A stretch of DNA of 25,763 nucleotides from a virus: the IMG/VR virus record IMGVR_UViG_3300020055_000140, positions 1 to 25,763 of that record; one strand, 5' to 3'. A program made the translations under genes and the position numbers. Positions 4,756 through 25,511 of the stretch are shown in pieces (position 1 is the stretch's first letter; each line of letters starts with the position of its first letter). The notes under the pieces are model-generated. The model had not been told where the DNA came from, did no database searches, and saw nothing but the letters and a program-made list of their open reading frames with translations.

Positions 4756-5592
4756 TTAGTTACAAGTTACTACGATTTGACCAGTTTCATTCGTTGTAAC
4801 AATACAGCCACTTTGCTCATTAGCCAACATATCTTTAAAGTCGGAATTTATAATAGTTGCATACTGAACCCAGCTTTTTGTGGTTTCGTGCATACCAAGC
4901 AGGCCTTGAATACCAAGACTTTCAGCAGTTTCAAGACCGTTAGTGCCAAGTGTTACAAGGCCATCCATAGCGTTATTGCTTATGTTAGCTGCTACGTTAA
5001 GACCGTCTTCAGCCGTAAGCCCAACTTGAGTAAGGCCAGCTGTTGCAATGTTAGTGTTAGCAGTAAACCCTGCAGTGCCTAAAGTAGTTAGGTTATCCAT
5101 GCCAGTAGTACCGAGATTTACCATACCGTCAATAAACGGAGTGTAGTCTACGTTTCCTACGGCAGTAAAGCCTGCACTAGAAATGTCAGAGAAACTGCCG
5201 TACAAGGCCTGTTGAGTCTGAGCATCAGCGGTTACTCGCGCTAGATCAACTTGTGAGTTGTAGCGAGCCATAGTCTTGGCTGAGTCTGCTTGCATCCACA
5301 TCATACCAAGAGAGGTCACAGGAGACGCTAGGATAGACGCCCACTGGATAGCTTCTGATTGTTGGGGAATAGGATTAGCAGTAGGAGTCTGTGTTAGAGC
5401 CAAAGCCATTACAGCAGCACTAGCGGCCTGTCCATCTCCTGCAGCAGCGATAGCAGAAAGGGCGTCAAACTTGGCTTGTGCCGCTCTTGAGTTAGCCTCT
5501 GCTGCTTTTTGTACTGCTTCATAGTATTGACTTGAGCTAGATGCACAACCTACTAAAAATACTAATACTGCGGCTACTAAAATATTCTTCAT
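4756..5592 (-). CDS. Phage lipoprotein with LGTxG-type repeats (278 aa)
   Basis: A classic lipoprotein signal is present: MKN, hydrophobic core, then lipobox LVGC with the lipidated cysteine at residue 16, followed by Ser-rich sequence. The mature protein is Ala-rich and helical. Its C-terminal half has loose repeats built on LxTLGTxGL/F units (NLTTLGTAGF, LVTLGTNGL). The last residues contain two cysteines (SGCIVTT and a terminal VTCN). The start overlaps the upstream stop as ATGA, with AGGAG 8 bases ahead. Membrane lipidation in a lysis-proximal gene could mean an outer-membrane spanin, a superinfection-exclusion lipoprotein or a late envelope factor. At 278 aa it is much longer than usual o-spanins, so I make no functional claim. 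Confidence 0.85.
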   Translation of the reverse strand: MKNILVAAVLVFLVGCASSSSQYYEAVQKAAEANSRAAQAKFDALSAIAAAGDGQAASAAVMALALTQTPTANPIPQQSEAIQWASILASPVTSLGMMWMQADSAKTMARYNSQVDLARVTADAQTQQALYGSFSDISSAGFTAVGNVDYTPFIDGMVNLGTTGMDNLTTLGTAGFTANTNIATAGLTQVGLTAEDGLNVAANISNNAMDGLVTLGTNGLETAESLGIQGLLGMHETTKSWVQYATIINSDFKDMLANEQSGCIVTTNETGQIVVTCN

Positions 5593-5852
5593 TGGGTTTT
5601 CTCCTTTTCACCTAAAAGTTTTTTAGCGCGAGCAATATCATTCAAAAATGATTGTTTACAATGCTCTTCTTGCCACGCCTGAAAAATAAAATTTAGGCTT
5701 TTTTCTAGCTGCTTCCAACCCTGTTTGTCGTTCAGTCTATAGGCTCTTCCTGAGACTGACTCATTTGGATTATCAGACAGCAATAAAGCCGTGTTGATAA
5801 GTTGGCTTGTAGCATCACCAACATGAATCATATAATTTACAAACTTATTCAT
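5589..5852 (-). CDS. Conserved small phage protein of unknown function (87 aa)
   Basis: This is a soluble helical protein. Notable segments are VNYMIHVGDATSQLINTALL, the SVSGRAYR core, and LNFIFQAWQEEHCKQSFLND. The combination of an N-terminal helix, an S-GRAYR motif and a W-x-x-EHC-like motif resembles a small family I recall next to lysis genes in podophages of proteobacteria; no activity is known to me. GGAG lies 6 bases before the ATG, and the stop overlaps the lipoprotein start as ATGA. Retention in a compact late operon argues for a real conserved gene. There is no membrane segment or signal. Confidence 0.85.
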   Translation of the reverse strand: MNKFVNYMIHVGDATSQLINTALLLSDNPNESVSGRAYRLNDKQGWKQLEKSLNFIFQAWQEEHCKQSFLNDIARAKKLLGEKEKTQ

Positions 5853-8068: not shown

Positions 8069-8695
8069 TCATGCTAGGGAAAAGTTTACTACTAAGACAA
8101 GCCTTAAAGGATCGTCTGATTTTGGATAATCATTAAAATGAAATCTGTTTCCTTCAAAAATAATTATTTTGTCTTCTTCTGGTTCTATAGACTCTATAAC
8201 GGACACATCTTTATAATCTTTTATTGTTTCGCCTGACTGCCACTTTTCATGACATAAATGAGTTGAGCCGCTAGTAGTGTTAAAATATAGAAGCATAACC
8301 AAATGCTTGTTAGTTGAATCTATATGAGGAAGGGTGTTTTCTAGTCTATCTGATCTAGATCTTGGAGTTAAATTTAAAGCTGATCTAAAAATTGTTCCTA
8401 GTTTTAAACCATTATACTCCAAAGTGCTTTTTACTGTATGATATACTAATCCAGCAGAGGGTGATTCTGCCCTTCCTTCTAAGTTGCTTTCATTTTCAGA
8501 TCTATTGTGTATTATGTGATTTAATACATATGTATAGTTATTATTAATAATATCTTTATCGAACGTGCGTGGAGTCGGTTCTCTTAACTCCCAAAGTATA
8601 TAATTTCTATCTGTATCTTGCGTGATTCGATTTTTAAATATAATATATGTTTCGTCTTTTGGGTTTTTTAACACCGCATAGGCAGGACTACTCAT
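8069..8695 (-). CDS. 2-oxoglutarate/Fe(II)-dependent oxygenase-like protein C (208 aa)
   Basis: The iron facial triad of the 2OG-Fe(II) oxygenase fold is visible: the HxD pair H124-I-D126 (LPHIDSTNKH), a following hydrophobic strand (LVMLLYFNT), the distal histidine H186 in NRFHFNDYP, and R198 (PLRLVLVVNF) placed to bind the 2-oxoglutarate carboxylate. A strand ending KIIIFEGNRFH matches the usual lead-in to the distal histidine. Such enzymes hydroxylate protein side chains, nucleic acids, lipids or small molecules; the substrate cannot be read here. It overlaps the upstream oxygenase gene by 4 bases (ATGA), so the two are co-translated. It is the last of three consecutive oxygenase-type genes. 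Confidence 0.78.
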   Translation of the reverse strand: MSSPAYAVLKNPKDETYIIFKNRITQDTDRNYILWELREPTPRTFDKDIINNNYTYVLNHIIHNRSENESNLEGRAESPSAGLVYHTVKSTLEYNGLKLGTIFRSALNLTPRSRSDRLENTLPHIDSTNKHLVMLLYFNTTSGSTHLCHEKWQSGETIKDYKDVSVIESIEPEEDKIIIFEGNRFHFNDYPKSDDPLRLVLVVNFSLA

Positions 8696-9339
8696 AAACG
8701 AATTTGCTCAATCCATCCAGTAGCAATATATTTTTCTCCCGACAAAGGTGGATTGCCTCTGTGAACATGAGTAAAATGAGCAGGCCATATAACAACCCGT
8801 CCTGTCTTTGGTTTTATTCTAGATGTTTGGTATAAAAATTCAGTTTCTCCACCTTCAAAGTCATCATTTAAATATAGCATAGTAGCTAAGACTCTTTGGG
8901 TTGTTCCGTTTGCTGTATTTTCGCAGTGCCAAACATGATAACCTTCTGCTGGTTTTGTTTGTTGAATATTAAAATATGAATGCCGCAGCTCCATATTTGT
9001 TAATTCTTCATATTTATCTGAATATATTTCAAAACAAGTATTGATAAGTTTATTGTATCCTGCAATGTATCCTAAATAGTCATCGACAGGTAGCATATAA
9101 GAATTTTCTTCGTTTAATACTCTTTCTCTTTCAAGAAAAGGCCAAGTCGAAAATCCGGTATCTGTCCTTGTATTTGCAATAGTCTCCCCGTCAGAGCTTG
9201 GAATTTTTTTGCGAGGAACCGCTACATTAGCGTCTTTTGCTATTTGAAAATACTGTAGTAGCGGATCAGTATCAAAATCTGTGTCAAAGATACCAATAAA
9301 GTTATCAATATTTGCTTCTAAAATTTTTATAGTATTCAA
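8692..9339 (-). CDS. 2OG-Fe(II) oxygenase, prolyl-hydroxylase-like, with HxE variant (215 aa)
   Basis: The C-terminal half is a recognisable prolyl-4-hydroxylase-type core: GYHVWHCEN (H138-x-E140 where most relatives have HxD), MLYLNDDFEGGETEF (the characteristic LNDDFEGGE strand), IKPKTGRVVIWPAHFTHVH with the distal histidine at 191 or 193, and K203 in GEKYIATGW for 2-oxoglutarate. The Asp-to-Glu change at the second iron ligand is unusual, though I recall similar WHxE versions in marine phage homologues. The start is TTG, supported by GGAGG 7 bases upstream. Its stop overlaps the next oxygenase ATG. The substrate is unknown; virion, host protein or envelope targets are all possible. Confidence 0.88.
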   Translation of the reverse strand: MNTIKILEANIDNFIGIFDTDFDTDPLLQYFQIAKDANVAVPRKKIPSSDGETIANTRTDTGFSTWPFLERERVLNEENSYMLPVDDYLGYIAGYNKLINTCFEIYSDKYEELTNMELRHSYFNIQQTKPAEGYHVWHCENTANGTTQRVLATMLYLNDDFEGGETEFLYQTSRIKPKTGRVVIWPAHFTHVHRGNPPLSGEKYIATGWIEQIRL

Positions 9340-9351
9340 AGAAATCCTCCA

Positions 9352-9957
9352 TTACTTCTGTCCAGAAACTATTTTTAGGGCTTCATGCCCTGTACTTGGC
9401 TGTGTATACACCAAAAGATGTATATTATCATTTAATCCTATATTTTCTTCTGCTTGTAATGCCTCCGTAGGTATTCTGTCTAGTATCCCTATCTCTGGAG
9501 AGTAATAAAGTTCTTTACCTTTTTTAGTTAGCGTTCTAACAAACGGCTCTTTACTTGAGCTAACTAATTGCATTCTATATATTATAACATTTAAATCTGG
9601 AAAAGTAGTATCTATATGCGGATAAATTTTGCAACCCTTTTTAACCCTAATTAATACACATCTTAATATATCAGAGTGTATTGCTGCTTGCGATAAAGCA
9701 AGCTCAAGATTTTCTAAAAGCTTTTGAAATACTGCATCTGCTCCCGCAGTTATGTGCTTTTGATATGTAGCGTTTTCAGTAATTTCTGAAGAAGGCGTTA
9801 CTAGTGGGATACACTCTGCTTCTCTAAAAGGCCCAGAAGGATCAAATTGTTGTATTTCCCAAAGACTTTCTGAAAGCTCCCTATATTTTTTTATACTTTT
9901 ATCTTGTATAGGAACAACTGAGTTATCTACAAATAGTGTGTCTTTGAAGGCTACCAT
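9352..9957 (-). CDS. Aspartyl/asparaginyl beta-hydroxylase-like oxygenase (201 aa)
   Basis: The sequence IYPHIDTTF gives an HxD pair (H114, D116), followed by RMQLVSS (R128) as in Asp/Asn beta-hydroxylase or cupin-type 2OG enzymes, where H-x-D precedes a strand with R-x-x-L. A candidate distal histidine is H180 in NDNIHLLVYT. The N-terminal half (SLWEIQQFDPSGPFREAE) has no clear motif. Assignment is weaker than for the next two genes because the spacing to the distal histidine and the missing W-x-x-G segment differ from the textbook family. The ATG at 9957 has no clear Shine-Dalgarno site and follows the upstream stop by 6 bases. It is the first of three consecutive oxygenase-type genes. Confidence 0.7.
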   Translation of the reverse strand: MVAFKDTLFVDNSVVPIQDKSIKKYRELSESLWEIQQFDPSGPFREAECIPLVTPSSEITENATYQKHITAGADAVFQKLLENLELALSQAAIHSDILRCVLIRVKKGCKIYPHIDTTFPDLNVIIYRMQLVSSSKEPFVRTLTKKGKELYYSPEIGILDRIPTEALQAEENIGLNDNIHLLVYTQPSTGHEALKIVSGQK

Positions 9958-9963
9958 AAATTT

Positions 9964-10455
9964 TTAAAGAGTATTTTTGTCTGCCAACATAAAGTCTCTG
10001 CGTTCAGCAGCTAAAAGACCAACAGAAATTAAATAGTCAATACCGCCTATAGTTTGTGGGTCTTGTGGGTCTACAAAAGAAGCCGATGCAAGATCATCAA
10101 GAAATATTTTTACAGTTGCATCTGTTTCAGCAGCAGCATAAATCGCTGTTTTTTCTGCAAGAGTAAACTTATTTCTAAACTCACCAACAGAATAGGATCT
10201 GGCTGCCGTAGCTAATCTTATGGCTGTTGGATCATTGGGATCTGGCTCTACGGGGTCAGGATCACTAACCGTAAGATTTTCTACATCTACAATTTTATTT
10301 AAAAAATAGTCTTGGTCTTGAGCTTCTGGAAAAAGCTCTACCATAGCATCTAAATCTAAATAACGAGCATCTAACTCTAGCACAGTATTATCGTAGGTTT
10401 CTGTTATTCCTGTAACTAAATTATCTGCTTCTCTTTTAATTAAAAATAGTGGCAT
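9964..10455 (-). CDS. Tail-region accessory protein of unknown function (163 aa)
   Basis: This is a two-part protein: an acidic N-terminal domain (residues 1-68), a short Asp/Pro linker (VSDPDPVEPDPNDP) and a helical C-terminal domain with FRNKFTLAEKTAIYAAA and the block ASASFVDPQDPQTIGGIDYL. The C-terminal pattern (a helix, then a Val-Asp-x-x-Asp-Pro turn, then a hydrophobic helix) occurs in small proteins I recall encoded beside phage tail fibre genes. A fibre-associated or assembly role is inferred from position only. The ATG at 10455 is 13 bases after the fibre gene's last base. Confidence 0.8.
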   Translation of the reverse strand: MPLFLIKREADNLVTGITETYDNTVLELDARYLDLDAMVELFPEAQDQDYFLNKIVDVENLTVSDPDPVEPDPNDPTAIRLATAARSYSVGEFRNKFTLAEKTAIYAAAETDATVKIFLDDLASASFVDPQDPQTIGGIDYLISVGLLAAERRDFMLADKNTL

Positions 10456-10468
10456 TGTTTATCTCTCT

Positions 10469-11341
10469 TTAAGATATTTGAGTTGCTGAAAATTCGACGT
10501 AATATTGGTTGCTGTTAGAACCCGGCCAATTACCCCAGCCATTAGTGGAACTACCGTTGTAGTTTCTATTAAAATAACCCATAAGAACATAACGTACATT
10601 TGTACTATTTATAAATCTACAACTAGCGCCGTTATAATCACTATGGTACTCATAGCCGTAAACAGCGCCATCCAGCGCAGGGCCACTATTTACAGACATT
10701 CCCCCTCCATTAGTCGTAAGAAATGTTTTGGCAGTATTAACAGAAGAAATTGTCCATGTGTCATAGTCATTAGCACTATTTATTTGAGTCCGAGTCGCAA
10801 GACGTTGAACGCTACAGCTACTCAAGCGACTAGAAACAGTTGTATCAAGCCTGTTCCGGTATGTTGTTGTCCAGACGTTACTAGAGAGTGCAGTAGAAGC
10901 GGGAGCGCGTGAGCTAATACTAGTATCAAGATAGCCTGCTCTAGTATTTGTCCATGTAGCCGTAGAAAGGGCCGTGGACGAGGGCGCACGGGAACTTACA
11001 GTAGTATCAAGGTTGTCTAGGTTTCCTGCTCTAGTACTTGTGTATACATTACTAGACAAGGCTGTAGAAGAGGGTGCGCGGGTGCTAATAGCCGCATCTA
11101 AATATCCTGCTCGTGTGTTTGTCCATGTAGCCGTAGAAAGCGCAGTAGACGATGGCGCTCTTGAGCTAATAGTCGAATCAAGATTATCTAAATTTGTTGC
11201 TCTTGCGGAAGTCCACGTTGCTGTAGACAAGGCCGTAGATGCTGGAGCCTTTGTGCTTATATTATCATCTAAATAGGCAGCTTTAGCATCTGTCCAAGTA
11301 GCAGGATCAAGACCGCCTAAAAAATCTCTTAAATTACTCAT
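10469..11341 (-). CDS. Repeat-built tail fibre protein (290 aa)
   Basis: I start at ATG 11341 (MSNLRDFLGG) because it overlaps the previous stop as ATGA and has GGTGG 8 bases upstream; an in-frame GTG at 11353 would add four residues. Residues 11 to about 177 are six tandem units of the form LSxxxWTxxRAxxLD followed by ISxRAPSSTA. Lengths alternate 27, 30, 27, 30, 27 and about 25 residues. The remainder is a Gly/Asn/Tyr-rich domain (GYFNRNYNGSS, GWGNWPGSNSN) likely to be a beta-structured tip. Ser/Thr/Ala/Asp repeats with a tip domain are typical of trimeric fibres that bind the host surface. Receptor binding is inferred. Confidence 0.85.
   Translation of the reverse strand: MSNLRDFLGGLDPATWTDAKAAYLDDNISTKAPASTALSTATWTSARATNLDNLDSTISSRAPSSTALSTATWTNTRAGYLDAAISTRAPSSTALSSNVYTSTRAGNLDNLDTTVSSRAPSSTALSTATWTNTRAGYLDTSISSRAPASTALSSNVWTTTYRNRLDTTVSSRLSSCSVQRLATRTQINSANDYDTWTISSVNTAKTFLTTNGGGMSVNSGPALDGAVYGYEYHSDYNGASCRFINSTNVRYVLMGYFNRNYNGSSTNGWGNWPGSNSNQYYVEFSATQIS
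10811..11311 (-). repeat. Six tandem fibre repeats alternating 81 and 90 bp
   Basis: Within the 290-aa fibre gene, units share the core WTxxRAxxLD...ISxRAPSSTA. Odd units are 27 residues; even units have three extra residues (an added NLD). The pair therefore forms a 171-bp super-unit. The DNA copies are also similar (recurring tccatgtagccgtagaaag), so recent duplication or gene conversion is likely. Confidence 0.8.
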
Positions 11342-13695
11342 ATTAACATCCACCCTTGAGTTGCGTCAACGTATTCTAAAACGCCTGAAAAATAATCAAC
11401 ATCTAAAGTTAAGTCAGTAGCAGAACCCATAATATTACTAGAATTTCTGCCAACAGTCACTGAAGTAGTTGCAAAATTACCACCATAATCAACAAAGCCT
11501 ACTTGATCTCCTGCGGTGGGAGAAGCAGGCAAAGTCATTGTAAATGTGCCACCAGAGCTATCTAAATAGTATCTGTTGCCTTTTACGGCTGTAAAGTTTG
11601 CGGTTTCTGCTGGTGTTTGTGAAGCCAAGCCTCCACTAGCTGCTACAGCATTAACCCATTCAGATCCATTATATGCCAACACCTGATCAAGCGCAGGACT
11701 TGTAATAGTTACGTCTGTAAGCTCTGAAAGCTCATCGGCTGTATCTACTTGAGCATCTACATAAGCTTTAATAGATTCTGCGGTTGCCAGTGTTGTAGCA
11801 GTAGCTGTAGCAAAAGTATCGTCATCAAGAATAGCTGTTCCAGACACCCCCGTATTAATTACAGGAGAAGTTAAAGTTTTATTTGTTAAAGTGTCTGTCG
11901 TATCTCTGCCTACCAAAGTATCTGTTGATGTTGGTAGTGTAAGTGTTCCTGTATTGCTGATTGAGCTAATAACAGGAGTTGTAAGTGTTTTGTTTGTTAG
12001 GGTATCTGTTGTATCCCTACCGACCAAAGTATCGGTAGATGTAGGTAGGGTCAAAGTTCCTGTATTACTAATAGTAGAAATAACAGGCGCAGTAAGAGTT
12101 TTGTTTGTAAGCGTCTGCGTACCCGTAAGCGTAGTAACTGTAGAATCAATAGCAACCGTCAGCGTATTAGTCGCACCGCTTGTATCAATGCCTGTGCCGC
12201 CAGCAATCGTTAGAGTTTCAGAGTCTAAGTCAATGCTTAATGCACCGCCCGTATCCCCTTGGAAGTCTAAGTCTTGGGCAGTTACTTGAGAATCTATGTA
12301 GGTTTTTATAGCCTTTGCAGAAGCAAGTGTATCATCAGAGGCTGAGACACTACTAAGGTCTGTATCGACCGCAGTAACACCAGTAGAAGTACCAATAATA
12401 AGAGTATCAACATCTGCTGTTCCAACTACTGTTAGTGTTGAGCCATCAAAAGTTAAATTACCGCTATCTTCTATAGAGCCAGCGGTTCCTGCAAGAACCA
12501 CCCTACCTGAAGTAAGGTCGCTAACTGTTGCGCTGGCAAGAGTTGATTCTCCTGTAACTCCCAGCGTAGTAGATGCTGTAATACTTGTAAAGGCTCCTGT
12601 AGAAGCTGTTGAGCTACCAATTGCTGTAGCATCTATTGTACCGCCATTTATATCAGCAGTCGTTAAAACAGAGCTAGCAAGAGTAACAACACCAGTAGCA
12701 TCTGCAATAGAGCCTGCTGAAGTACCGTCTTTTGCTTTGATGTTTGTAACTTCAACATTAGTAGTATCAACTGTTGTTGCATTTGCTGTTGTAAAAGTCG
12801 CTTCTGCTGCACTTGAGCCTCCAATTGTGGCTCCATCAATAGTTCCACCATCAATATCAGCAGTATCAGCTACTAAACTATCAATGTTGGCAATTCCGTC
12901 AATATAAAGATTTCGCCATTCTTTTGTAGCACTACCAAGATCATAAGTATCATCAACATCAGGAGTGATGTGTGAGGCTATGTCTGCGCCAAGAGTAATT
13001 GTATCGGTATCTGCATCACCAAATGTAAGGTTTCCAGAAATTGTAGCATTGCCCGTTACAGTTAAGTTACCGCCAACCGCTACATCACCTGTAGTAGTAA
13101 TTGCATCAATATAAGCATTTGCCCAATATAGTGAAGTGCTACCAAGATCCCAAAGGCTGTCTGTTTGTGGCAAGAAATTTGAATTAACTGTAGCAGTTAT
13201 AATCAGCGTATCTGCTGCTGCATTGCCAATTGTTACATCGCCAGAAAAAGTTGCTGTCCCACCAACATTAAGAGTAGTTCCAATCACTGCTGAAGCATCA
13301 ACACTCAAGTCATCAATTGTAGCTGTACCATCTATATAAAGATTTTTGAACTCAAGTGAGGCCGAGCCAAGATCAATATCATCATCGGTTACTGGGACAA
13401 TAGCCCCATCTTGAATGCGGATTTGTTCGACAGGCGCACTAGCTACTTCTACAAAGAAGCCCCAGCGGTTGTTGGAATCATCGACAACAATTTTATTATT
13501 AAAATCTAAGTCGCCAATTTGCGGAATGTTACCGCCTTCTCCAACAGTGCCATCATGTCTATGTCCGGTAGTAACTGCACTAATGCTAGAATAATTGAAT
13601 GCATTTACAAGCTGATTGTATTCATCATTAAATAACGCTGCTGTAATGGTATCGCCATCTGCAAATGTACTTTGTCGCGAATAGTTTTGAGCCAT
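11338..13695 (-). CDS. Large tail fibre / appendage protein (785 aa)
   Basis: The N-terminus has a conserved-looking attachment segment (YNQLVNAFNYSS, GHRHDGT). Three repeats follow with the motif DLGSxxxxWxNxYID (DLGSASLEFKNLYIDG, DLGSTSLYWANAYID, DLGSATKEWRNLYIDG), each followed by GG-NL-TV-type beta segments. A long Ala/Thr/Ser/Asp-rich beta-repeat shaft comes next, with TLTNKTLTxPVI repeats around residues 525-615. The C-terminal domain (FTMTLPASPTAGDQVGFVDY) resembles a common fibre C-terminal fold. The lack of charge and the abundance of Thr, Gly and Asp fit a beta-helical trimeric fibre. AGGAG precedes the ATG. Its stop overlaps the second fibre gene. Confidence 0.88.
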   Translation of the reverse strand: MAQNYSRQSTFADGDTITAALFNDEYNQLVNAFNYSSISAVTTGHRHDGTVGEGGNIPQIGDLDFNNKIVVDDSNNRWGFFVEVASAPVEQIRIQDGAIVPVTDDDIDLGSASLEFKNLYIDGTATIDDLSVDASAVIGTTLNVGGTATFSGDVTIGNAAADTLIITATVNSNFLPQTDSLWDLGSTSLYWANAYIDAITTTGDVAVGGNLTVTGNATISGNLTFGDADTDTITLGADIASHITPDVDDTYDLGSATKEWRNLYIDGIANIDSLVADTADIDGGTIDGATIGGSSAAEATFTTANATTVDTTNVEVTNIKAKDGTSAGSIADATGVVTLASSVLTTADINGGTIDATAIGSSTASTGAFTSITASTTLGVTGESTLASATVSDLTSGRVVLAGTAGSIEDSGNLTFDGSTLTVVGTADVDTLIIGTSTGVTAVDTDLSSVSASDDTLASAKAIKTYIDSQVTAQDLDFQGDTGGALSIDLDSETLTIAGGTGIDTSGATNTLTVAIDSTVTTLTGTQTLTNKTLTAPVISTISNTGTLTLPTSTDTLVGRDTTDTLTNKTLTTPVISSISNTGTLTLPTSTDTLVGRDTTDTLTNKTLTSPVINTGVSGTAILDDDTFATATATTLATAESIKAYVDAQVDTADELSELTDVTITSPALDQVLAYNGSEWVNAVAASGGLASQTPAETANFTAVKGNRYYLDSSGGTFTMTLPASPTAGDQVGFVDYGGNFATTSVTVGRNSSNIMGSATDLTLDVDYFSGVLEYVDATQGWMLI
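11850..12113 (-). repeat. 37-residue tandem repeat in the large fibre, about 2.4 copies
   Basis: Units begin TLTNKTLTxPVI, continue SNTGTLTLPTSTDTLVGRD and end TTD. Two complete 111-bp copies and a partial third are present, almost identical in protein and very similar in DNA. Similar TLTNKTLTxP units occur in many phage fibres. Confidence 0.8.
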
Positions 13696-21947: not shown

Positions 21948-22058
21948 TTATCCTATTGGTGTTAGGCTTACAATACTATATATTAAAGTCCAGCCCGTTA
22001 CAATACCTAAACTATAAATACCCCAAGTATTAAGAGGACGCCAAATTTTATTCTTCAT
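21948..22058 (-). CDS. Tiny single-pass membrane peptide between terminase and portal (36 aa)
   Basis: ATG at 22058 overlaps the large terminase stop (TAATG), and its TAA lies 2 bases before the portal ATG, so it fills the 112-base gap precisely. The peptide begins MKNKIWRPLNTWGIYSLGIV and ends SLTPIG, with one hydrophobic segment from about residue 12 to 31 after a basic N-terminus (positive-inside). There is no strong ribosome site of its own; expression would be by translational coupling. A 36-aa frame can occur by chance, but exact fit, charge pattern and a coherent membrane segment favour a real gene. The function is unknown. Confidence 0.65.
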   Translation of the reverse strand: MKNKIWRPLNTWGIYSLGIVTGWTLIYSIVSLTPIG

Positions 22059-23740
22059 TAGTAACCAAATGTTCCGTCTGCTGGTTGGTATATAGTCTCT
22101 CTGTGAAAGTCCCTTATTTGGCTATAAGTATCGTGTACTCGTGGTCTAGCCATAATAAGATACCGCAAAGCATCATATGCGTGATCTGATGCCTTAGTAT
22201 CTACATCTTCAGGGTTACTTTTATCTAAAGGAATACTTTGAAGTTCGCGTATCAGGTTAGGACAAGTATTAAATATTTGTATTTTGGGCCTTCCGCTTTG
22301 CTGCAACTTTAAGTATTCGTGAATCTGTATTTTTCCTGCAACCCTGTTTTTATCTGCTCGTCTAAGCTTGTGTCCAGCTTTTACAAGCGTTTCTCCTACT
22401 GTCGGGCCTGTTTGCCCTGTTCTGTTCCAACAAGCTGTATCTAGTACGCCGGGAACACTTAATGGATCATTTAGTTCCATTTCAGTTATCATATGAGCTA
22501 GGTCAGTGCCTAGTAGACCTTTACGATACAATTCTCTATAAATTATTAGTGTACCATCGTCTTTGTCTACGGCTCCCCAGACACAAGCTGATTCTGAAGC
22601 ATATCCATAGTCAATGCCTTTTATACGTTCCCAATGTAAAGGAATTTCAAAAGGCTCAATTACATGGAGATTGCGATCAAACTCTGTAAAGGCTGCACCT
22701 TCTGCAACCTCCCAATCTCCTTCTAAAAGCTGTCGCCGTTGTGTAGGTGGCAACGCCTTTAGCATTTGTTCGTAGCGTCCATCAGCAGCCAGAAAGGGGT
22801 TATCCTCTAGTCTAGCTGGTATAAACTTTCGCGTTAATCCATCTTTACCAATAAAAGACTCGTAGGGTGGAGATGGATCTATATATCTTTTCTTTACCCA
22901 ATGCGCCCCAACACCACCGGGGTTAGCTGTACACCGCATATAAGGTATAATCTCTGGATCTGTTGTACGCAGTCGAGAAGCCAAGTAGTTCCAAGAAAAC
23001 TCTGTAGCTTGGTGCGTAATCTCGTCAAACCCAATCCAACTATATGCTTGACCTTGGTAGCGATAAACATCTGCATCTCTCTCCAAGAATCCAAATTCTA
23101 TTTTAGCTCCAGAAGGAAAGTTCCAAAGCTTTTCTACTTCTTTGTACTTACAACCGGGAAAGGCTTTCGGGTAGAGTTCCCGAGATTTATCAATTAGCTC
23201 TCGCAACTCTGGCATAGAACGCCGCAGGATTAAAGCCCTATGCGCTGCCCGATGAGCAAAGCGAAGAGGATCAACCAACATCGCATAGCTCTTGCCTCCA
23301 CCAGCCGCACCGCCGTACAAAACATCAGTCTCAGAAGCAGCGAGAAAGTCTGTTTGTGGGCCATCGTTGGGCCTAAAGATGACATTCTCTTCTGCGACAG
23401 TCCTTAACGATTTGGGTAAAGCATCAGGAGTTTCTGTTGTTATTTTACCTTCTGCTTTTGCCTCAGTTCCCTCTAGCTTTTGCAGCGTCTTTTTAGAGGT
23501 GTCAAGTGACTTTTTATAGTTTTCTAGTTTGGTGCGTACCTGCGCTAACCGCTTTTCTTTCTTTCTAACGGTTTTACGGGCTTCAATCTTGGCCTTGGTT
23601 TCAGAGTGATAGTTATAACCACGCCCTGAAGAGCCTTTTGGCCTGCCCGTCTTTTTTCGGGGAGTCCCGTCTTTCTTTAAGACAAACTCACCGTTTTCAT
23701 CCTGAACATAATTGTCAGGATTCAAATCCCAATCATTCAT
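22058..23740 (-). CDS. terL: Terminase large subunit with basic N-terminal extension (560 aa)
   Basis: The packaging ATPase/nuclease is clear. The Walker A block YGGAAGGGKSYAML is at about residues 142-155, Walker B is YSWIGFDEITHQ, and the coupling region is CTANPGGVGAHWVKKRYI. Nuclease acidic residues lie in GIDYGYASES, GVLDTACWN and SDHAYDALRYL. I start at ATG 23740 (MNDWDLNP); a TTG at 23752 would add four residues. About 110 residues precede the ATPase: an acidic start, a GRPKG AT-hook-like piece (KKTGRPKGSSGRG) and a Lys/Arg-rich coiled coil. That extension is longer than usual. It cuts the concatemer and pumps DNA through the portal. Confidence 0.96.
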   Translation of the reverse strand: MNDWDLNPDNYVQDENGEFVLKKDGTPRKKTGRPKGSSGRGYNYHSETKAKIEARKTVRKKEKRLAQVRTKLENYKKSLDTSKKTLQKLEGTEAKAEGKITTETPDALPKSLRTVAEENVIFRPNDGPQTDFLAASETDVLYGGAAGGGKSYAMLVDPLRFAHRAAHRALILRRSMPELRELIDKSRELYPKAFPGCKYKEVEKLWNFPSGAKIEFGFLERDADVYRYQGQAYSWIGFDEITHQATEFSWNYLASRLRTTDPEIIPYMRCTANPGGVGAHWVKKRYIDPSPPYESFIGKDGLTRKFIPARLEDNPFLAADGRYEQMLKALPPTQRRQLLEGDWEVAEGAAFTEFDRNLHVIEPFEIPLHWERIKGIDYGYASESACVWGAVDKDDGTLIIYRELYRKGLLGTDLAHMITEMELNDPLSVPGVLDTACWNRTGQTGPTVGETLVKAGHKLRRADKNRVAGKIQIHEYLKLQQSGRPKIQIFNTCPNLIRELQSIPLDKSNPEDVDTKASDHAYDALRYLIMARPRVHDTYSQIRDFHRETIYQPADGTFGY

Positions 23741-23960
23741 ATCGGTCTGCAATCTTCTTCAGGCCCATATGTGAAATACTACGTCCAGTATCATATTCTA
23801 GCCACATAGCGCCCTCGCGTAAAGATAAAACTTTATTTTTTATCAGCGGAACGACTTTATTGAGGGCTTTTAATTCCTCTGGAACTTCTTCTAAAAATTC
23901 GCTGTTTTCTTCTTTTAGTTTATAACCAAAAGGTATTGTACTGCTAGTGCGCCTCTTCAT
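23733..23960 (-). CDS. Small helix-turn-helix-like protein between terminase genes (75 aa)
   Basis: I start at ATG 23960 (MKRRTSSTIPFGYKL), with GAAGG 5 bases upstream; an in-frame TTG at 23972 has no ribosome site. The sequence IPFGYKLKEEN...ELKALNKVVPLIKNKVLSLR and then EGAMWLEYDTGRSISHMGLKK reads like the resolvase-type 'recombinase' or HTH segment in which LSLREAAxWLxxxTGRxISHxGLxK forms a helix-turn-helix. I recall this short family beside terminase genes in marine phages. It overlaps the small terminase gene by 17 bases and the large by 8. It is probably DNA-binding and assists packaging-site recognition; that role is inferred. Confidence 0.82.
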   Translation of the reverse strand: MKRRTSSTIPFGYKLKEENSEFLEEVPEELKALNKVVPLIKNKVLSLREGAMWLEYDTGRSISHMGLKKIADRYE

Positions 23961-25040: not shown

Positions 25041-25511
25041 ATGTCTAACGCAATCCAATTCGACGCTACAGCCAATGCAACCGTCAAGCAGATCTACATG
25101 ATCGGGTCACACTTTGCCAAACTCACAGGATCTAATCCGCAGGAAGTTTGGGGTTTGACTAAGCGATTCCCTGCCGCCATGATGAAGTGGAATGCAGAGC
25201 ATTCTAATACTCCCATAACTATGGGAGACATTAACACTTGGAAGTCTGGGAACAAAGTTCCCGCTAAGTTTGTGAAGATGGTCACGGCTAAAAAGCCGAC
25301 CTCTCCAAAGACTTCAAAGAAGTCTCCAAAGCCCGAGGCAGTCGCAAAGCCGAAGGCTTCTCCAAAGCCCTCCGAGATGCCCGTGGGTGATTTCAAAGAT
25401 CACTTTGAAAAGATTACGGGCCGAGTCTTTAGACTCGAACAGGATATGGCAACCATGAATGCCAAGCTAGATATTATTATGGCTTTCGTTCAGGAAGATC
25501 CTGAAGCCTAA
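25041..25511 (+). CDS. Unknown protein with Lys/Pro linker and C-terminal coiled coil (156 aa)
   Basis: This is the first rightward gene. Residues 1-83 look globular (VKQIYMIGSHFAKLTGSNPQ, EVWGLTKRFPAAMMKWN, MGDINTWKSGNKVPAKFV). Residues 84-113 are a Lys/Pro/Ser linker resembling histone H1 or HU-type tails (KKPTSPK, KASPKPSE). Residues 117-150 are a coiled-coil helix (FEKITGRVFRLEQDMATMNA). TCTCCAAAG repeats in the DNA encode the SPK units. AGAGGAG lies 6 bases before the ATG. No family recognised. The tail suggests nucleic-acid contact and the coil oligomerisation, perhaps an early regulatory or DNA-binding protein; this is inference. Confidence 0.85.
   Translation: MSNAIQFDATANATVKQIYMIGSHFAKLTGSNPQEVWGLTKRFPAAMMKWNAEHSNTPITMGDINTWKSGNKVPAKFVKMVTAKKPTSPKTSKKSPKPEAVAKPKASPKPSEMPVGDFKDHFEKITGRVFRLEQDMATMNAKLDIIMAFVQEDPEA

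Follow-up and report, generated by a model that had tools for sequence, protein, structure and literature searches.

The window, a virus record of 25,763 bases, carries its late genes on the (−) strand in the order terminase (22058-23752), portal, capsid, tail genes, fibre, genes A, B and C, and lysis-type genes. The terminase is 67% identical to its counterpart in Pelagibacter phage HTVC115P, and the source virus is a pelagiphage-like podovirus, with relatives among the phages that infect the marine bacterium Pelagibacter. Gene A (9352..9957, 201 amino acids) is a member of the fibre cassette and encodes a possible, very divergent 2-oxoglutarate (2OG)-type oxygenase; gene B (8692..9339, 215 amino acids) encodes a predicted 2OG-Fe(II) oxygenase of prolyl-4-hydroxylase-like type that belongs to phrog_61; and gene C (8069..8695, 208 amino acids) encodes a predicted 2OG-type oxygenase that belongs to phrog_274. 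All three are on the (−) strand. The start codon of gene B is TTG, with GGAGG ahead of it, and the stop of gene B overlaps the start of gene C in an ATGA (8692..8695, (−) strand), a reading of the sequence that suggests translational coupling. The initial annotation gave the coordinates, the lengths and the ATGA overlap correctly, and its placement of the three genes between the tail fibre and the lysis-type genes of a late operon agrees with the gene order. It also held that the genes are not recent duplications; indeed, comparing them in pairs gave no meaningful similarity.

The fibre cassette and its exchangeable slot

Directly upstream of gene A lies the gene for a 163-amino-acid fibre-cassette protein with a Pro-rich linker (9964..10455), preceded by those for a 294-amino-acid repeat protein with SSRAPSSTALS repeats (10469..11353) and a 785-amino-acid tail fibre (11338..13695), all on the (−) strand. 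The C-terminal part of the fibre is common to fibre gp66 of HTVC115P and to a second virus, L003 (57.8-kb record). There, a homologue of gene A (L003:9941-10573) is preceded by the same fibre C-terminus, the repeat protein (L003:8842-9447, E 4.8e-64) and the 163-amino-acid protein (L003:9457-9936, 41% identical), and is followed by an 88-amino-acid gene related to the one at 5589-5852 of the window. This five-gene module occupies 9352-13695 and 5589-5852 in the window and L003:7475-10830 in the second virus; in the window, B, C and four further genes separate the 88-amino-acid gene from the rest of the module. Outside the module, almost none of the genes compared are related between the two viruses, so its presence in both suggests module exchange. 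The C-terminal part of the 163-amino-acid protein also matches a protein of Acidithiobacillus phage AcaML1 (43% identity, E 1e-8), a phage with a distant host.

HTVC115P is syntenic with the window on both sides of the slot (fibre gp66; gp54, gp49 and gp47), and its slot holds gp55-gp65, several of which are fibre-like by inspection; no 2OG gene was found among them. The GC content of A, B and C together is 34%, compared with about 41% for their neighbours. Synteny and low GC content together fit the view that A-B-C is cargo in an exchangeable region downstream of the fibre gene. In the L003 virus, A has a GC content of 44% against 51% for its surroundings, and B and C are not clearly lower.

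Genes B and C and the phrog_274 label

The initial annotation proposed searches against curated 2OG families. Gene B matches one of them, PF13640 (2OG-FeII_Oxy_3), above its cut-off (E 2e-14; 54.7 bits, cut-off 27), as well as phrog_61 in PHROGs (8e-47). Its best matches in the PDB are the prolyl 4-hydroxylases 3itq (1.4e-6) and 5c5t (1e-5), the latter from a chlorella virus; PKHD hydroxylases are also found. Known prolyl 4-hydroxylases use HxD. The bacterial and chlorella virus enzymes (3itq/5hv0, 5c5t) are related to gene B in sequence (E 1e-6 to 1e-5) and share its distal His and Lys; however, their metal carboxylate is Asp, whereas that of gene B is Glu. The predicted metal site of gene B is H138-C-E140...H193, plus the basic K203 at the 2OG-binding position, and an alignment of 76 relatives retains each of these four residues in 69-76 sequences, with no exception at H193 or K203 and with Glu in 69 and Asp in 6 at the carboxylate position. 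Glu is thus the norm of the family. Judged by its sequence, gene B is a clear 2OG-Fe(II) oxygenase, prolyl-4-hydroxylase-like. Aligned over 87% of its length, it shares ~46% identity with the phrog_61 proteins of cyanophages S-M1, QB2 and S-RIM2 (PF13640), and the phrog_61-type relatives among viral contigs have the same H-x-E...H...K arrangement; the cyanophage relatives are from cyanomyoviruses, whereas gene B lies in the fibre cassette of a pelagiphage-like podovirus. Many marine phage 2OG proteins have been found to resemble human EGLN3, with both iron-binding histidines retained (PMC12774648).

For gene C, the same searches gave a divided result: no Pfam family was matched above its cut-off, but phrog_274 was (1.8e-19), and an iterated 2OG profile seeded with gene B reaches gene C at 6.6e-13. 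The candidate site of gene C is H124-x-D126...H186...R198, all four residues being invariant in 12 divergent phrog_274 members. The cyanophage phrog_274 proteins have HxD...H...R in common with gene C, although it is only ~26% identical to them. A scan with the C-type protein of L038 found only itself. Taken together, the family and profile matches and the site place gene C, as predicted from sequence, among the 2OG-type oxygenases.

PHROGs describes phrog_274 as 'DNA endonuclease V'. A profile built from 12 phrog_274-type proteins had EGLN1-type 2OG hydroxylases as its top PDB matches, weakly (E 0.02), and found no endonuclease V in the PDB, so gene C was rejected as a T4 endonuclease V (DenV). 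Other members of phrog_274 score towards PF13640, though under its cut-off. The label is most likely wrong, as the family looks like 2OG oxygenases; it is widely used, and its probable mislabelling affects current annotations. In cyanophages and viral contigs, 2OG-oxygenase-like proteins are included in PHROGs labelled 'DNA endonuclease V', 'DNA endonuclease' and 'ferrochelatase' (phrog_274, phrog_2297 and phrog_2954/phrog_3531); an example of such a protein is L006:673-1242, with HRD...H. If those labels are wrong, this bears on reports of ferrochelatase and 2OG co-occurrence.

Gene A

The candidate site of gene A comprises H114-x-D116 (in PHID), H180 and K195. Protein and DNA-pattern scans of viral contigs identified a single distinct homologue, the L003 gene (~56% identical), in which all four residues are kept, and besides it only the near-identical L002. 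A third candidate, L092, was rejected as a chance match. No relatives were found in genome contigs, and phages and plasmids gave no credible match. The pattern H.D-(40-90)-H-(8-18)-[RK] occurs in 9% of gene A shuffles, and 41 of 268 non-2OG ORFs have it as well; thus, the motif is no better than chance and is not, by itself, evidence for membership in the 2OG family. Searches of Pfam, PHROGs and NCBIfam gave no 2OG family match for gene A; none appeared with the threshold relaxed to E ≤ 1 or to E ≤ 10, and its profile scores against 2OG ORFs and against other ORFs showed no useful enrichment of the former at the top ranks. The Asp_Arg_Hydrox family, which the initial annotation had suggested for comparison, gave no match either (PF05118, within the window, E ≤ 10), and gene A was rejected as an Asp/Asn beta-hydroxylase. 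The view that the locus encodes three 2OG oxygenases therefore holds, by sequence, for B and C; for A, with its chance-level motif and no family match, it is only possible.

The same results would be expected if the product of gene A were not an oxygenase but served the fibre cassette in an accessory role, such as assembly, with HxD...H...K arising by coincidence. The conservation of A alongside fibre genes in two different viruses points in the same direction, and we consider the chances of this explanation to be slightly below even. It has to contend with the homologue, which keeps PHID, the distal His and the Lys, and with an hhalign comparison of gene A with 93 families, in which the C-type 2OG family ranks first with PHID aligned, at a probability of only 3.8%. 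Predicted structures also bear on the question. Two low-confidence AlphaFold models of gene A (pLDDT 46 and 50) were searched with Foldseek, and the top matches included many 2OG enzymes (AlkB, ALKBH5, FtmOx1, P4H, a Burkholderia 2OG oxygenase and viral hydroxylases), with other folds mixed in and none significant; the matches of these models may be said to lean to 2OG enzymes. On balance, the odds that gene A has a very divergent 2OG fold are about even. It is very unlikely that gene A is the first member of a new and extremely rare 2OG oxygenase family linked to fibres, one that modifies the receptor-binding proteins encoded next to it, with further steps supplied by B and C; if it were so, the phage would hydroxylate its own host-recognition apparatus.

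The B-C pair and its proposed role

The L003 virus has, in addition to A, homologues of B (56% identical) and C (36%), which are ATGA-coupled and lie ~26 kb from A. This B homologue is absent among the viral-contig matches listed for gene B and was found by searching the L003 record. The distance from A indicates that the unit is B-C, not A-B-C. On the one hand, the three genes are contiguous here, all three are present in each of the two lineages in which A was detected, and the low-confidence models of A are closer to 2OG folds than to other folds, as would be expected if A, B and C were all 2OG oxygenases in one dedicated pathway of fibre or virion modification. On the other hand, the second virus has its B-C pair far from A, A is only a possible member of the superfamily, and pairs of the B-C type occur in phage loci where A was not found. 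We consider a single pathway of this kind unlikely, and the dedicated pathway suggested in the initial annotation is not supported; nor is the triplet a single conserved unit.

The pair itself recurs. A phrog_61-type gene adjoins a phrog_274-type gene in L038, L052, cyanophage Syn10 (L004) and the L018 group, and the same 4-base ATGA overlap is present in L096, L038 and L052; in L064 the order is reversed, with C then B, so a strict B-then-C order was rejected. Among the matches listed, at least several unrelated marine phages have B-type and C-type neighbours. Of the proposed triplet, what stands is a pair of distinct 2OG oxygenase subtypes that are translationally coupled, lie in a late operon close to fibre genes, and recur as neighbours in other marine phages. 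Such a recurrent, coupled pair is a small, testable unit among the many 2OG oxygenases of marine phages.

Both B and C are intact as read from the DNA and fall in 2OG families, with complete sets of metal and co-substrate residues. Each would bind Fe(II) through a pair of His residues and an acidic residue (Glu or Asp), decarboxylate 2-oxoglutarate with O2 and hydroxylate a protein side chain, most likely proline in the case of B because of its relatedness to the prolyl 4-hydroxylases of bacteria and viruses. The substrates would probably be Pro-rich or repetitive phage proteins made simultaneously, such as those of the fibre cassette. The window offers three candidates: the Pro-rich N-terminus of a 1093-amino-acid protein encoded in the same operon as B-C, the Pro-rich linker of the 163-amino-acid protein, and a 156-amino-acid protein with Pro/Lys-rich repeats of SPKP type (25041-25511, (+) strand). 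We somewhat favour the combined reading that B and C encode 2OG/Fe(II) oxygenases of two different kinds, coupled in the late operon, that act as protein hydroxylases in virion production on a substrate we infer, and that A belongs to the exchangeable fibre cassette as a gene in its own right, outside any obligatory three-step pathway.

The main rival to virion-protein hydroxylation is host-directed activity: as auxiliary enzymes, B and C may act on host proteins or small molecules by hydroxylation, or may alter the level of 2-oxoglutarate, in which case their place next to the fibre would reflect no more than a slot that takes up cargo genes. This rival draws on a slot that is open to exchange and has a low GC content, on cyanophage genomes in which members of these families are found at many different positions (C-type genes are also found away from fibres, e.g., beside the sliding-clamp gene in S-SM2), and on the roles proposed for phage 2OG oxygenases, which are general, including 2OG levels, DNA repair and metabolism (PMC3037559, PMC9602691). 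The B-C pair of the L003 virus, which is not near a fibre, likewise argues against fibre-only roles. However, for genes in a late structural operon, virion proteins are no less plausible as targets, and gene B is closest to protein prolyl hydroxylases; we regard a host-directed role as the less probable one, with a minority chance of being correct.

The initial annotation contrasted the single 2OG oxygenases known in marine phages with this tandem set of three; in a wider comparison, the placement is not unusual. Runs of 3-7 adjacent 2OG genes are frequent in a sample of viral-contig loci with B relatives (among the matches listed), seven being found in L038 and L052; since the loci were picked for carrying B relatives, these frequencies are not general, and 2OG membership in the arrays rests on an iterated profile, with possible drift. 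Five adjacent 2OG genes follow shortly after fibre-like genes in L040. In the L038 and L040 arrays, all members but one match PHROGs related to 2OG enzymes; the remaining one falls under 'minor coat protein'. In cyanophage Syn10, motifs point to a run of about six 2OG or JmjC-type genes, of which three score above a Pfam cut-off, two score below it and one has no Pfam match. Similar expansions have been described: 2OG oxygenases are present in 14 of 16 cyanomyoviruses (PMC3037559), cyanophage S-SCSM1 has 24 2OG genes (PMC9602691), and pelagiphages have eight non-orthologous types (PMC9599517). In these, as here, a genome may hold several divergent 2OG oxygenases, some of them adjacent; what differs in this phage is a coupled B-C pair together with an unrecognised gene A in a fibre cassette. 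Oxygenase clusters are common in marine phages, and the B-C pair plus A belongs to this already described kind.

Within the same loci, 17 of 19 genes of phrog_7084 (~240 amino acids) have a 2OG oxygenase gene as their immediate neighbour, compared with 30 of 83 other ORFs (Fisher p 2e-5), in loci that were pre-selected for 2OG genes and include some near-duplicates. Examples are L096:2238-2957, L038:7196-7972 and L052:7267-8007, with further cases in L043, L045, L031 and L057.
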